From Bacteroidetes bacterium HLUCCA01 (lineage in GTDB: Bacteria > Bacteroidota > Rhodothermia > Balneolales > HLUCCA01), in NCBI GenBank assembly GCA_001314545.1, contig LIHN01000018.1:186001-250000 (forward strand): 64,000 bases of DNA, written 5' to 3'. The notes under the pieces are model-generated. The model worked only from the letters and a program-made list of their open reading frames with translations. It searched no databases and was not told the origin of the DNA. Position numbers and translations under genes: made by a program. Of the stretch, positions 3,978-52,289 are shown one piece after another; within the stretch, counting starts at the first letter, position 1, and every line of letters begins with the position of its first letter.

Positions 3978-4547
3978 ATGGGCAGTTTTTCAACTATCAA
4001 AAAAGAACAAAACGCAGTAATCGCTTCTGCTGTACAGCAGGTAGTCAAGCAGATATCAACGGATCATGAAGCCGCTAAGGCGCAATTCACCGCAACCTCT
4101 TCCTTGCACGAAGGATTGCTGGCCGACATCCAGATCCGACAATTCGACCTGGTTTCTGATGAACCGAAATCCCTAGGCGGCACCGATTTGGGTCCGAATC
4201 CGGTAGAGTTGGTTCTCGGGGCATTTGCGGCCTGCCAGGAAATTGTGATTGCAGCCTACGCTGCAGTATTAGGCATTGAAGTGCAGCGGGTTAATGTGAA
4301 AGCAACGGGCGATATTGACTTACGTGGTTTTTTCAACGTCTGCGATAAGATTCGTCCCGGCTTTACAAAGGTGACCTACGAAACGGAAATCATCACCCGC
4401 GAAACCGATGAGGCAAAACTGGCTCAATTGCGTTTCTTTGCACAGAACAGATGCCCTGTTCTGGATATTCTGCAGGAGCCTGTTCCAACTGAAGGTACCG
4501 TTACCTTTAAAGAAAAGGTAGCTATTCCGGAATATCAGGCCGGATAA
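3978..4547 (+). CDS. OsmC family protein
   Basis: An OsmC/Ohr-fold protein of 189 residues. It has the typical central helix segment NPVELVLGAFAACQEIVIAA with the first reactive Cys, and RCPVLDIL with the second. SLGGTDLGPNPVEL is the usual approach to the helix. OsmC proteins are dimeric, thiol-dependent enzymes that reduce organic hydroperoxides; many members have unknown substrates. An extra N-terminal stretch of about 30 residues (FSTIKKEQNAVIASAVQQV) precedes the fold. The start at 3978 follows GGAGAAGAAAAA. It sits between metY and metX, with a possible terminator after it. Its place in the methionine locus suggests a sulfur- or thiol-related task, but that is inference. Confidence 0.9.
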   Translation: MGSFSTIKKEQNAVIASAVQQVVKQISTDHEAAKAQFTATSSLHEGLLADIQIRQFDLVSDEPKSLGGTDLGPNPVELVLGAFAACQEIVIAAYAAVLGIEVQRVNVKATGDIDLRGFFNVCDKIRPGFTKVTYETEIITRETDEAKLAQLRFFAQNRCPVLDILQEPVPTEGTVTFKEKVAIPEYQAG

Positions 4548-4565
4548 ACAAAGCCTCGAAAATAA

Positions 4566-4602
4566 AAAACCCCCGGAATGGGCAGAGACCGGGGGTTGAT
4601 AT
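4566..4602. terminator. Probable bidirectional terminator between OsmC gene and metX
   Basis: CCCCCGG at 4570-4576 pairs with CCGGGGG at 4589-4595, with A-T extension on both ends. An A run precedes it and a TTGATAT tail follows. The plus-strand tail is poor, while the minus-strand tail (TTTTTTATT) is good. It may separate metX-thrA from the SAM-controlled genes. Confidence 0.6.
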
Positions 4603-4723
4603 ACATCGTACTACTGGCGGGTCCGGACAGACCAAAACAGCTTCTGATGCATGACTAAAGTTAATCAGAATCTGCATAACCCTAAACAGCGAAAACTGTG
4701 CGGGGGGAGACCAACATCAACCG

Positions 4724-5776
4724 ATGACTGGAACAACAACGCTATATACACTACCTGAACCGTTCGTAACCGAATCGGGTGAGACGATTACACCGGTACA
4801 GGTAACCTACAAAACCTGGGGAAAACTAAATCAGGACGGCAGCAATGCGGTACTGGTATGTCATGCACTCACCGGGAATGCCGAAGCCGACGAATGGTTT
4901 CCCAGCCTTTTCGGGGATGATGGCATGCTGAATCCGGATGAGCAGTTCATCGTGTGCTCGAATGTACTTGGTGGCTGCTACGGCACCACCGGACCGTGGA
5001 GCGTGAATGCATCCACCGGAAAGCGCTGGCGGGCTGACTTTCCGAAAATCACCATCCGTGATATGGTCCGGGTACAGCAGCTGCTGCTCAGTCACCTGGG
5101 TGTGACCTCCATCGAGCTGGCCCTGGGCGGATCCATGGGAGGCATGCAGGTGCTCGAATGGCTGTGCATGGATGATCGCATTCAGAAAGCAGTCCTCATT
5201 GCCATGGGCAAGGCGCACTCGCCCTGGACTATCGGTTTCAGTGAGGCTCAGCGCCGGGCCATCCGGGCCGACCGTAACTGGAACGGGGGGTTTTATGCAC
5301 CCGATGCTCCGCCGGCTGAAGGGCTTGCTGCAGCACGGATGATGGGGATGATGATGTACAGAAGCGCACCGGCGTTTCAGCGCAGATTTGGCAGAAATTT
5401 ACAGGACGGACATGCCGATTTGCTGCAGGTCAATTCCTATCTGAACTACCAGGGAGACAAGCTTGTTAAGCGGTTCGATGCCAATACCTACATCACGCTT
5501 ACCGAGGCCATGGATACCCACGATGTATCCCGGGGCAGAGGCAGCTATGAACAGGTACTCGGCTCCATTACAGTTCCCGTATTGGTGATGGCAATTTCTT
5601 CGGATGTTCTATATGTGCCCGCTGAGCAGCGTGAGCTCGCCGGTTTACTAGGAAACGCCCGCTATGCCGAGCTGGAATCGGATGAGGGCCACGATGCATT
5701 TCTCATTGAATTCCCAAAAATGGCCGAAATATACCGGACATTTAACCAAAATATTATTTCTACAGACTCCCGCTAA
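4724..5776 (+). CDS. metX: Homoserine O-acetyltransferase
   Basis: MetX is an alpha/beta-hydrolase-fold enzyme that transfers acetyl from acetyl-CoA to homoserine, giving the substrate of MetY. The 350-residue protein has YKTWGKLN and VLVCHALTGNA near residues 30-50 and NVLGGCYGTTGP near 85. The nucleophile elbow GGSMGGMQVLEW lies near 138, and the acid and base of the triad are in SSDVLYVPAEQ and DEGHDAF near 290-325. The overlap of one base with thrA (TAATG) implies translational coupling, so homoserine synthesis and its acetylation are made together. A purine-rich GGGGGGAG lies 15 bases before the ATG, rather far for a ribosome site. A homoserine succinyltransferase of the same fold is the only alternative. 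Confidence 0.94.
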   Translation: MTGTTTLYTLPEPFVTESGETITPVQVTYKTWGKLNQDGSNAVLVCHALTGNAEADEWFPSLFGDDGMLNPDEQFIVCSNVLGGCYGTTGPWSVNASTGKRWRADFPKITIRDMVRVQQLLLSHLGVTSIELALGGSMGGMQVLEWLCMDDRIQKAVLIAMGKAHSPWTIGFSEAQRRAIRADRNWNGGFYAPDAPPAEGLAAARMMGMMMYRSAPAFQRRFGRNLQDGHADLLQVNSYLNYQGDKLVKRFDANTYITLTEAMDTHDVSRGRGSYEQVLGSITVPVLVMAISSDVLYVPAEQRELAGLLGNARYAELESDEGHDAFLIEFPKMAEIYRTFNQNIISTDSR

Positions 5777-46785: not shown

Positions 46786-49302
46786 TCAAACTTTCATCAC
46801 CAGAAGCGTCATATCATCGGCAAGTTCATAGTCACTGAAATCCAGCACTTCCTGCTTGAAATATTCACAAATTGCTTCGGCCGACATGGACTGGGTGTTC
46901 ATCGAATTCAGTACCCGGATTACACGGTCGAATTCATAAAGTTGGCCTGTTTTTGAACGCGCTTCCGGCAAGCCATCCGAATACAACAAGAGTGTATCAC
47001 CGCTCTGGAGCTGCAGATGGGTAGTTTTATAGGGTACTTCACTTCGTATTCCAAGGGGCAATCGCGGATTTTCAGAGGATATAAAGCGGGTTTGGTTTCC
47101 ACGTTTGAGCACCGGCTGGCAGTGACCGGCATTCACAAAGTGCAGTATTTGGGTTTGAATTTCGTAGCGGGCCAGCAAACAGGTTATGAAAGACTGTGCA
47201 TCGGTACGACTATGAAGGATAGGGTTAATTCCTGTTAATACCTCAGCTGGATCTTTCCCTGTTTCCCTGGCATTTGAAAGGAGAAGTCCACTGGTGAAAA
47301 TTGCTGTGAGTGCTGCTTTCATGGCTTTCCCGGAGACATCCACTACCGTAAGCATGAGTTCTGCCGGCCGGCCATGCTGATCTTTGATGAGAATATGGTC
47401 ATAGAAGTCACCGCCTACTTCAAAGGACGGAATAAAGAAGCCCTTCACGTCAACGTGCTCAAGATCTGGTGAGGATTTGGGCATCATGGCAAATTGCGAC
47501 TCTTTGGCTATCTGAAACTCCCGCTCAATTCGGAGCTGCGATTTTAATTTTTGCTCGTATTCCGGCACATAGCCCGCAGCAAGCAAATCTTCGCGACCAA
47601 AATGATGCAAGACAACACCACAGGCAAATGGCAGCAGCAACAGTCCGGTGAGTATCCAGCCCTGAGTCATAATAATAGGATCTTCAGACCCCATAAATGC
47701 CCCCGTCCGTGTCACAAGAAAAACAATCCACAACCCAATTGAGGTAGTAAGTATTCCGTAATACCGATAGGCAAGTACGAGGGGAACCGAAAGCAGAAAA
47801 AATGCAAACCAACCACTCAAAATTCCACCCGAAACCGATACAAAGGAGATCCCAAATCCCAATAAAACAGCGGTAACCGAAGAACCGGCAACGGTTAAAA
47901 CAATGGTATTTCGAATGTAAACCCGCATTATACTCAATACAGCACCAAAAAAAGCGTATCCAACCATGGGCACATATGCCAGACTGTTAACCAGGTTGGT
48001 CAATACCGGAAATAAACTGCCTACACTCGAAAAGCCCGTACCGTCATCGTAGATACTGTATACCGAACCGCTTGCATAAAGACCCAATGACCACATTCCC
48101 AGAGCCAGACCGGCATAGGCATACGCAGCCAGGATTGCTTTGCCAATTTTCCGCTGGAAAAAATTCATCTCCCAAAGCGCATCCATATGCGGAACCTGTT
48201 CGTGATTTTGCCGTCGGGCGTAGGCATCCCAAATAAGATAAGCCAGTCCTGCAAAGATGCCAGATACTACGGCTCCAGCCATATAAAACAACATATCCAG
48301 TCCTGCTATTCCGGGTGTCAGCAGTGGATAATACGTGTAATGCATGGTCAGATAGCGGTAAACCAAAAGAAGCACTGTCACAGATCCTGCAATAATCAAT
48401 GACCGCCCCCAAATTACCTGACCCCGGAAAATTAAACGTACTGCTACAACCACAAGCAATACAGTTAGTATCAGCATGGATACAAAGAGAACGATAATCC
48501 TTGACAGTGACAAATCAGACTCAACAGGCACGTCCAGATCCAGCACCGTATACGATGAAAATACCCTGGTAACACGAATAGCCGGACTGAGTACCTCATG
48601 GTCAGAATCATCGGCGCTGACTATATCAGGATGATAAGTAATATGAACCCGTTCAGGCAATCTGCTTACCGAACCCCTTCGAACGTATGTGACCGTATAC
48701 TCTGAATTCTCTCTGGGTACCATAGATACCGGTCTTTCTAAGACCACTACCATCTGTGAATCCGGCAGTAACTCAAATTGATCCGGGTTGAATCCGGAGG
48801 CTTGCAGCACTTTATCCAACGCTGCATTTAAACTGTCAGCGGTAAATAATGCAGCTGCGTTTTCAGGATGGGCCCTGAAAGAACGGACCCTCATCTGCCG
48901 GTCGAAGCTCACACTGGCAAGGCCATATTCGTCGAACAAGCTCTGATCACCTGAAATGGTCTGGACAGACTCATACGGTTGCAGATACATGACAGACCAC
49001 CCACTCAACGGTACCCCTGATCGGTTCAGCGCGAGTGGATTTCTATTGGTTCCTTTGCCCAGTGAATCAATAAGATCTTCATACAGGTAGGTTCGTTGCT
49101 GACGACGGACCAACGGTGTATAAGACGGATAGGAATCCAGGCCAAAATCCTGCATAACCCGTTCAGCACGTTCTATAGCGACAAACCGGCTGGTTTCAAC
49201 GGCACCGCCCGAATGAAGTTCTGTTACCGGTCGTAACGCCAGATAAACCAGAAACCCAAGCACCCCAATGTAAACAATGATATAAACGGTTCGGAAAGAC
49301 AA
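46786..49302 (-). CDS. Membrane-bound SpoIIE-type PP2C phosphatase
   Basis: A large 838-residue protein. An N-terminal membrane helix precedes a periplasmic-type domain of about 250 residues. About ten transmembrane helices follow (roughly 265-590). The C-terminal PP2C/SpoIIE phosphatase has SFEVGGDFYDHI near 640, TVVDVSGKAMKAALTAI near 665, FVNAGHCQPVL near 735, LLLYSDGLPEARS near 785 and ADDMTLLVM at the end. Metal-binding aspartates are intact. Such phosphatases act on anti-sigma antagonists (STAS proteins) and control stress responses; no such partner is in the window. The start is TTG 49302; no better start is near. It heads the hflKC operon. Confidence 0.88.
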   Translation of the reverse strand: MSFRTVYIIVYIGVLGFLVYLALRPVTELHSGGAVETSRFVAIERAERVMQDFGLDSYPSYTPLVRRQQRTYLYEDLIDSLGKGTNRNPLALNRSGVPLSGWSVMYLQPYESVQTISGDQSLFDEYGLASVSFDRQMRVRSFRAHPENAAALFTADSLNAALDKVLQASGFNPDQFELLPDSQMVVVLERPVSMVPRENSEYTVTYVRRGSVSRLPERVHITYHPDIVSADDSDHEVLSPAIRVTRVFSSYTVLDLDVPVESDLSLSRIIVLFVSMLILTVLLVVVAVRLIFRGQVIWGRSLIIAGSVTVLLLVYRYLTMHYTYYPLLTPGIAGLDMLFYMAGAVVSGIFAGLAYLIWDAYARRQNHEQVPHMDALWEMNFFQRKIGKAILAAYAYAGLALGMWSLGLYASGSVYSIYDDGTGFSSVGSLFPVLTNLVNSLAYVPMVGYAFFGAVLSIMRVYIRNTIVLTVAGSSVTAVLLGFGISFVSVSGGILSGWFAFFLLSVPLVLAYRYYGILTTSIGLWIVFLVTRTGAFMGSEDPIIMTQGWILTGLLLLPFACGVVLHHFGREDLLAAGYVPEYEQKLKSQLRIEREFQIAKESQFAMMPKSSPDLEHVDVKGFFIPSFEVGGDFYDHILIKDQHGRPAELMLTVVDVSGKAMKAALTAIFTSGLLLSNARETGKDPAEVLTGINPILHSRTDAQSFITCLLARYEIQTQILHFVNAGHCQPVLKRGNQTRFISSENPRLPLGIRSEVPYKTTHLQLQSGDTLLLYSDGLPEARSKTGQLYEFDRVIRVLNSMNTQSMSAEAICEYFKQEVLDFSDYELADDMTLLVMKV

Positions 49303-49480: not shown

Positions 49481-50759
49481 ATGAGCAGGCAAACATTATT
49501 TTTTCTTCTTCTCTCCGGTTTGATTTTAGTCAATCTGCCGGTTTTCGCTCAACAGCTGACCCCGGCCGACACGCTCCGTCTTCTGGCACATCCACAGCGT
49601 GCAGCACATACCTTTGTTCACTGCCAGATGTAGGGACACGAGCGCCCCGGAGCTTTCCGCTACTACCATGCTGGTTAAACCGGATTTAACCGAACAGGAA
49701 CGTATCAACCTTGCCCGACAACTTCTGCGTGTGCTGGATTCTCGCGGACTGCTCATAGAATTCGAAAACATTCCCGCAAATCCGGCTTATGAAGACAGTC
49801 TTTCAGGCTTGCATCAATATATATTGCTCCCCTCCCTTCCGGAAATATATCTGGAAAAGCAGGGAAACTTATGGCTTTTTTCTCAAGCCAGTGTGGAAGC
49901 CATTCCAGACATTTACCGCAGCACATTCTCCATTTTTGTAGACCTGGTTCTGGATAATCTGCCTGATTACATGCACCATAGCTGGTTTGGTCTGGCCATG
50001 TGGCAGTACCTGGCTTTGTTTTTTTGGCTGCTGGCCGGCCTTGCCTTACGGAAAATAGTGGAGTTCGTCCTGGAGAACTATGTGCACCGCCTCACGCGTC
50101 AGACCAATACCCAATGGGATGACTACCTGGTTGAATCAGTCAAGAAGCCTGTCAGCTTCATTATCATGCTGATATTCTTCAAAATAACTGCAACCAACCT
50201 AATGCTGTCAGTTAATGTAAATTATTACATGAACTGGTTCATTGACATCGCCCTGAGTTTCTCTTTTGTTTGGCTGTTTTATGGTTTGGTTAATGTAATT
50301 ACCGGTTTTCTGGGTGACGTGACTTCACGATCAAAAAGTAAACTGGACGAGCAACTGGTCCCGCTGCTGGGGAAAACCTTAAGGGCTTTTGTAGTTATAG
50401 TTGGTGTCCTGTTTATCATCCAGAACAGCGGATACAACGTGGCCTCCGTTCTGGCAGGACTTGGAATAGGCGGTCTTGCAGTAGCTCTCGCTGCCCGTGA
50501 TACCCTTGCCAATTTCTTCGGATCTGTTACCATTTTCCTGGATATTCTGCGTGTAGCAAAAGATGTAGGTGTAGAGTTCGCTTATCCTACTCAGACACTG
50601 CATATTGACAGCTTTCATGCAGATAACCCCCGAAGTGCCGGCGAAAAGCGATCGGAAGAGGAACTGGTCAGTTCAGTGTGGGAATACGGTCCTCAGGGTT
50701 CAGCCAAACCCAAAGGTGGTGCCAGACTGTTCCGGGGCGGCAAGGAAATCGACTTCTAA
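49481..50759 (+). pseudogene. Mechanosensitive channel (MscS family), triply damaged
   Basis: ATG 49481 gives a signal peptide (FFLLLSGLILVNLPVFAQQ) and continues LLAHPQRAAHTFVHCQM until TAG at 49631-49633. A frame change near the C run 49645-49648 then leads to a long open frame, APELSATTMLVKPDLTEQER onward, to 50759. That part has MscS-type helices ending in TM3 (VLAGLGIGGLAVALAARDTL, ANFFGSVTIFLD). The next residues are ILRVAKDVGVEFAYPTQTLH, which in MscS proteins is the very end of the cytosolic domain. The beta domain with DRPFxIGDW and most of the alpha/beta domain, about 150-170 residues, are therefore missing in frame at about 50535-50545. Family assignment is by recognised motifs; loss of function is inferred. 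Confidence 0.82.
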
Positions 50760-50930: not shown

Positions 50931-51359
50931 TTAGCAGAAGGCGTTGAAAATCATCATCAAATCATTGGCAACTTCCTGAGCCGATCTGCCTTCCACGCGG
51001 TGCCGCGGAATCATCGCCTTAATCTCGCCATCTTTGAAAAAAGCAAAGGAGGGCGAGGAGGGTGGAAACTCAGAAAAATATCCACGGGCACGTTCGGTGG
51101 CCTCCCGATCCTGACCGGCAAATACCGTATACATATGATCCGGCTGCTTTTCATTTTCAAGGGCAATTTTCACCCCGGGACGTGCATTACCTGCCGCACA
51201 TCCGCAAACTGAATTAATCACAAGCAACATCGTGCCTTCTTTCTTCTCGCCCAAAACGGCATCAACATCTTCTGGTGTGCGCAATTCCTTTACGCCGAGA
51301 TCGGTCAACTCGGTGCGCATCCAACTGGTATCCGGACCGATTCCAAAACCAAATTGCAT
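50931..51359 (-). CDS. Bacilliredoxin, BrxA/BrxB family
   Basis: A 142-residue thioredoxin-fold protein of the YphP/YqiW (BrxA/BrxB) family. The active motif is VINSVCGCAAGNARPGV with CGC near residues 52-54. SPSFAFFKDGEIKAMIPRHRVEGR is typical for the C-terminal half, here in two parts (SPSFAFFKDGEI, MIPRHRVEGR). It ends in Cys (NAFC). Bacilliredoxins remove bacillithiol from oxidised protein thiols in the cytosol. Presence implies a bacillithiol-type redox system, which Balneolota and relatives are known to carry. ATG 51357-51359. It has its own strong terminator at 50875-50913. Confidence 0.93.
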   Translation of the reverse strand: MQFGFGIGPDTSWMRTELTDLGVKELRTPEDVDAVLGEKKEGTMLLVINSVCGCAAGNARPGVKIALENEKQPDHMYTVFAGQDREATERARGYFSEFPPSSPSFAFFKDGEIKAMIPRHRVEGRSAQEVANDLMMIFNAFC

Positions 51360-51464: not shown

Positions 51465-52289
51465 ATGAAAAATTCCAGCCTTCTGACACTCGTACTACTT
51501 TCGCTGGGTCTTCTGAGCGTTGGGTGCACCTCCGCCAGGGTGCTCAGCAGTAATTATACCTCAACGGAACTGACCATTGACGGAGACATTTCGGATTGGC
51601 CCAGAGACCGGATGCAATTGGAAAATAACGCCGAGTTCGATGCTTACTTTGCAAACGATGGGATGTTTTTATACATGTATCTGGTTGTCAAAAGCCAGCA
51701 GCTTTACAACGATCTGAATGAATATGGACTCCGGCTTTACGTTGATCGTCAATCCAAACCGAAACGGATGTTTGGATTAATCTACCCTATTGGAGTACTG
51801 AACTATATCAGTCCCGTACCCGGTGCCAGACAGGAGTATATTGAGAATCCCGGGTGGGCCGGCTTCCCGGAAAATCGTCAGCTGCTGGAGCGTTATCAGG
51901 ATGAACGTTTTACCAGGGCCATGCTTATACAACGCAGTAACCGCAGCGACCAGGAGCGCCCGGCTGACGTTCTTACAGAAGTTTTACAGGCCCAGGGTAT
52001 TCAGATATCCCACGATCCTGATGCCCGTTTGTTAAATCTGGAAGTTAAAATCCCCCTGCAGCCAACCCGCAGCCATCCTTTTGCCATAGAAACAGAACCA
52101 GGGGAAACGATTTTTGTAGGGATTGAAGTAAAACCACCCGGCGCAGACGAAATTTTACAGGAAGCAGGGTCAGTACTTGCAGAAGGACAAGGTGGCAGCA
52201 TGAGACAACAGCAGGAGTTGGCACAGCGAATGCAACTACGGGGAGAATTTTCCCGGTGGATACAGGTGTCGCTTGCTGAAGCGCCCTGA
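51465..52289 (+). CDS. Lipoprotein with CBM9/DOMON-like domain
   Basis: A predicted lipoprotein of 274 residues: signal MKNSSLLTLVLLSLGLLSVG with lipobox SVGC near residue 21. The mature protein opens with ELTIDGDISDWPRDRM, the usual entry of carbohydrate-binding module 9-like/DOMON-type sandwich domains. FDAYFANDGMFLYMYLVV and LRLYVDRQSK strands follow. The C-terminus is helical and polar (QQELAQRMQLRGEFSRW). No catalytic residues are visible. Ligand and role are unknown. It is divergent from the bacilliredoxin gene and convergent with the superoxide dismutase gene. Confidence 0.65.
   Translation: MKNSSLLTLVLLSLGLLSVGCTSARVLSSNYTSTELTIDGDISDWPRDRMQLENNAEFDAYFANDGMFLYMYLVVKSQQLYNDLNEYGLRLYVDRQSKPKRMFGLIYPIGVLNYISPVPGARQEYIENPGWAGFPENRQLLERYQDERFTRAMLIQRSNRSDQERPADVLTEVLQAQGIQISHDPDARLLNLEVKIPLQPTRSHPFAIETEPGETIFVGIEVKPPGADEILQEAGSVLAEGQGGSMRQQQELAQRMQLRGEFSRWIQVSLAEAP

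Follow-up and report, generated by a model that had tools for sequence, protein, structure and literature searches.

A probable young pseudogene of a long MscS/YnaI-like channel in Bacteroidetes bacterium HLUCCA01

An MscS-type channel gene at 49481-50759 of the window, by which we mean the whole 64,000-nucleotide stretch of Bacteroidetes bacterium HLUCCA01 DNA analysed here, is interrupted near its start, has lost an internal part and nonetheless keeps a long open frame. This raises the question of whether the locus is a gene in decay or a shortened membrane protein that is still made, two options that a first-pass annotation made from the sequence had set next to each other. As we see it, the MscS copy most probably is a young, ordinary pseudogene, recently inactivated, of a gene for a long channel of the MscS/YnaI-like kind that had an N-terminal region in the periplasm (probability of about 0.93). 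Support for this option comes from three disabling lesions that are independent of each other, from an orthologue still intact at that site in the same genus and from the lack of any short form in relatives.

Lesions and domain content of the MscS copy

In G001, the only other genome from this genus, an MscS/YnaI-like gene of 560 aa (contig 9 / JAFIEZ010000010.1, loci L003 and L049) is intact, sits at the matching site with the same neighbours and orientation, and is orthologous to the locus. Over the main retained part the two are 79-80% identical; unlike the window copy, however, the G001 orthologue has its full 560 codons without stop or shift and both cytosolic domains present. In the window, the 5' frame runs from ATG 49481 for 50 codons into TAG at 49631-49633, with AAG in the relative, and a C-run (49645-49648) that holds a single surplus base then changes the frame. 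Both lesions had been called from the letters alone and are borne out by the alignment (Table 1). Since the bases between the TAG and the C-run still align in the old frame with L003, stop and insertion are two separate events. The frame from the native start, which a functional member of the MscS family would need uninterrupted, is thus broken twice, by the TAG and by the additional base.

What remains downstream includes the pore helix / transmembrane 2/3 family PF21088, which scores 34.8 bits against a cut-off of 23.1, while PF00924 went undetected when the remnant was searched for Pfam families. In the intact relative, this beta-domain (PF00924) covers residues 341-406 at 77.7 bits, and the C-terminal PF21082 residues 416-501. 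With residues 356-489 deleted, stretch 356-406 of the former is gone and the last 12 residues of the latter are left, so that the deletion leaves little of the beta-domain and hardly anything of the C-terminal domain.

Table 1. Features of the MscS copy in the window.
Feature	Position	Strand	Basis
5' part of gene, original frame: signal-peptide-like start and first 50 codons, up to TAG	49481..49630	+	70% identity to residues 10-56 of intact orthologue; 1 TAG inside match
Nonsense codon TAG (AAG, Lys, in same-genus relative)	49631-49633	+	Alignment with G001 orthologue L003
CCCC run with +1 base shifting the frame	49645-49648	+	Alignment with L003 and sequence
Gene body, +1 frame: periplasmic region, transmembrane helices, pore helix (PF21088), VTIFLD end	49650..50543	+	79% identity to residues 57-355 of intact orthologue; PF21088 E=1.7e-8
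TTCCTGGAT at deletion junction	50535..50543	+	Corresponding edges in G001 relative are TTTCTGGAT and TTCATGGAA
Deletion junction, 402 nt (134 codons) missing, in frame	50543..50544	+	Protein alignment with intact orthologue and relatives
3' end of gene, last 71 codons and stop	50544..50759	+	69% identity to residues 487-560 of intact orthologue

The internal deletion and its edges

As the first-pass annotation had it, VTIFLD is fused in frame to the C-terminal end, ILRVAKDVGVEFAYPTQTLH, at 50543/50544. The missing stretch, whose position was set by protein alignment rather than by global DNA alignment, comprises the 134 codons that, in the intact orthologue, follow FLD (codon 355) and run to the end of FFME (codon 489). 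Because the edge-to-edge distance is a constant 134 codons in all relatives measured, the loss amounts to 402 nt; so while the claim of a domain loss without a change of frame holds, the size of 150-170 residues given along with it does not.

Alignment with intact homologues, which had been proposed as a check, also places the breakpoints at the imperfect repeat TTTCTGGAT / TTCATGGAA (as seen in G001), with TGGA, 4 bp, as the exact common core. Relatives had been thought to carry an FLD-type sequence at both edges. The near edge in G001 does read FLD, but the far edge, whose ancestral state we infer from relatives, is FME (ATGGAA) in the two nearest ones; elsewhere it is mostly FLE or LLE. A simple model gives a random junction a chance of about 1.6% of showing 4 bp or more of match, but repeats that agree at 7 of 9 positions around a 4-bp core are frequent in the gene (435 pairs). 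Slippage or microhomology joining as the cause of the deletion may hence be plausible, yet with a 4-bp core and that many comparable pairs the case is weaker than originally put. In our reading, three independent mutations, i.e. a point change to TAG, one additional base in the C-run and the 402-nt deletion, broke the gene, and replication slippage or end-joining at short repeats may have removed the deleted segment, whose ends share short microhomology. That the deletion stayed in frame is a one-in-three event and calls for no selection.

Could the remnant be real, translated or useful?

If the true genome had an intact gene, the lesions would be assembly or sequencing artefacts, and an additional base in a C-run is indeed a typical error. 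In a comparison of the 64-kb window with about 76 kb of G001, a count limited to the window, the MscS copy came out as the only clearly broken gene, with about 46 other orthologous pairs open; other flagged cases were short ORFs on the strand opposite real genes, ORFs cut at the window edge and differences in start sites. Three different lesion kinds in one gene, none of them clearly seen in the neighbours, make general sequencing error unlikely, and assemblers do not usually drop 402 nt at an imperfect repeat of 4 to 9 bp, so to our minds an artefact is highly unlikely. A second candidate for a broken gene (4532-5773) was rejected: the stop precedes the 350-aa ORF at 4724-5776, which is intact.

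It has also been considered that the remnant may be translated from an inner start (e.g. ATG 49668) into a membrane protein useful as a reduced channel or membrane scaffold. Consistent with this, the +1 frame is open from 49599 to its stop at 50757-50759, contains all transmembrane segments and, joined across the in-frame deletion, is open for 386 codons in total, a feature that speaks against a pseudogene. So does the absence of a significant excess of amino-acid change in the kept codons, which would fit a constrained remnant, too. With L050, a second close relative, as the third sequence, unique amino-acid changes number 35 in the window copy versus 27 in the G001 copy (p=0.37), or 27 versus 14 for the gene body alone (p=0.06), and at positions invariant in intact relatives 4/110 are changed, among them a conserved Trp that has become Cys beside the stop, compared to 3/113 and 4/114 in two intact genes. 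Since synonymous sites (dS) are saturated between the two species and recent loss would leave no signal, the test cannot separate the two options: either the gene was damaged late compared with the split of the species, or its remnant is under constraint. Further support for a translated remnant may come from a working miniature MscS in Trypanosoma cruzi (PMC12334622). This TcMscS, the smallest known functional MscS, does without the alpha/beta domain but keeps the beta-domain, which completes the pore (PMC12334622). This minimal functional unit works as a channel with its beta-domain and TM2-TM3, whereas in the window copy most of the beta-domain is missing and the far C-terminal end is still there. 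E. coli YnaI, to which the solved structures nearest to the intact orthologue belong (e.g. PDB 5y4o, 9e62; E about 1e-45 over residues 248-522), has beta- and alpha/beta-domains, nearly all of which the window copy lacks. E. coli MscS already recovers poorly from inactivation when its last 20 residues are removed (PMC4440785). With most of the beta-domain lost and the open frame severed from the signal peptide (and from the first ~60 residues), a working channel is unlikely.

Other observations argue against any translated form. An upstream TAG plus frameshift is not expected under selection, and no good ribosome-binding site was seen before the inner starts, albeit this is weak evidence in this bacterial group. 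Moreover, the short form, whose conservation in relatives would have pointed to a new protein type, occurs in none of 59 relatives and none of 394 sampled phylum genomes; a wider contig scan found no match with the broken protein as query and did find relatives with intact homologues as queries. We consequently regard a useful translated remnant as quite improbable, and a membrane protein made from 49668-50756 without the MscS cytosolic domains and with its own function in this species as very improbable. Programmed +1 frameshifting at the TAG, by which a single product would bypass both upstream lesions, has in its favour that a single slip would lead from the 5' frame into the downstream one, which is shifted by +1. 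Relatives are in one frame without a slip site, though, stop and insertion are separate events as judged from the old-frame alignment up to the C-run, and the product would still come without the deleted domains, which makes this option scarcely credible. Our preferred reading, a recently inactivated pseudogene, carries a caution: 49599-50759 should not be annotated as a new short MscS protein type.

The MscS site among relatives

Orthologues of about 560-600 codons are present in many of the 59 related genomes searched, and L050, too, has an intact MscS gene flanked by the same neighbours. The order SpoIIE-type phosphatase / MscS / BrxB-like is shared with other Balneolaceae records and L050, so MscS is old at this site. 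In two sister genera of the same family (G002, G003), both flanking genes sit next to each other without an intervening MscS, and no recognisable MscS remnant was found in their intergenic gaps; here, the site has already lost the gene cleanly. Intact, decaying and absent states of the MscS site thus all occur in one family. This offers one clear case, in one bacterial family, of the three states at one site, with little reach beyond this genome.

Loss of the window copy is probably tolerated, as four other MscS genes (PF00924) of the source genome all stay open. A search of whole genomes for MscL (PF01741) found none in the source genome or G001 and one each in G002 and G003.

The SpoIIE-type phosphatase gene beside MscS (46786-49302, minus strand; 838 codons) diverges fast, with 57% identity within the genus compared to 70-95% for most neighbours, and has counterparts in L049, L129 and L130 as well. 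On the other side, the BrxB-like 142-aa protein (50931-51359, minus strand), which from our own reading of its sequence we take to be of the YphP/YqiW type, shows 96% identity between members of the genus and keeps its place next to the MscS site throughout Balneolaceae. A lipoprotein-like 274-aa ORF (51465-52289, plus strand) accompanies the BrxB-like gene in several relatives and is fast-evolving, with 57% identity within the genus.
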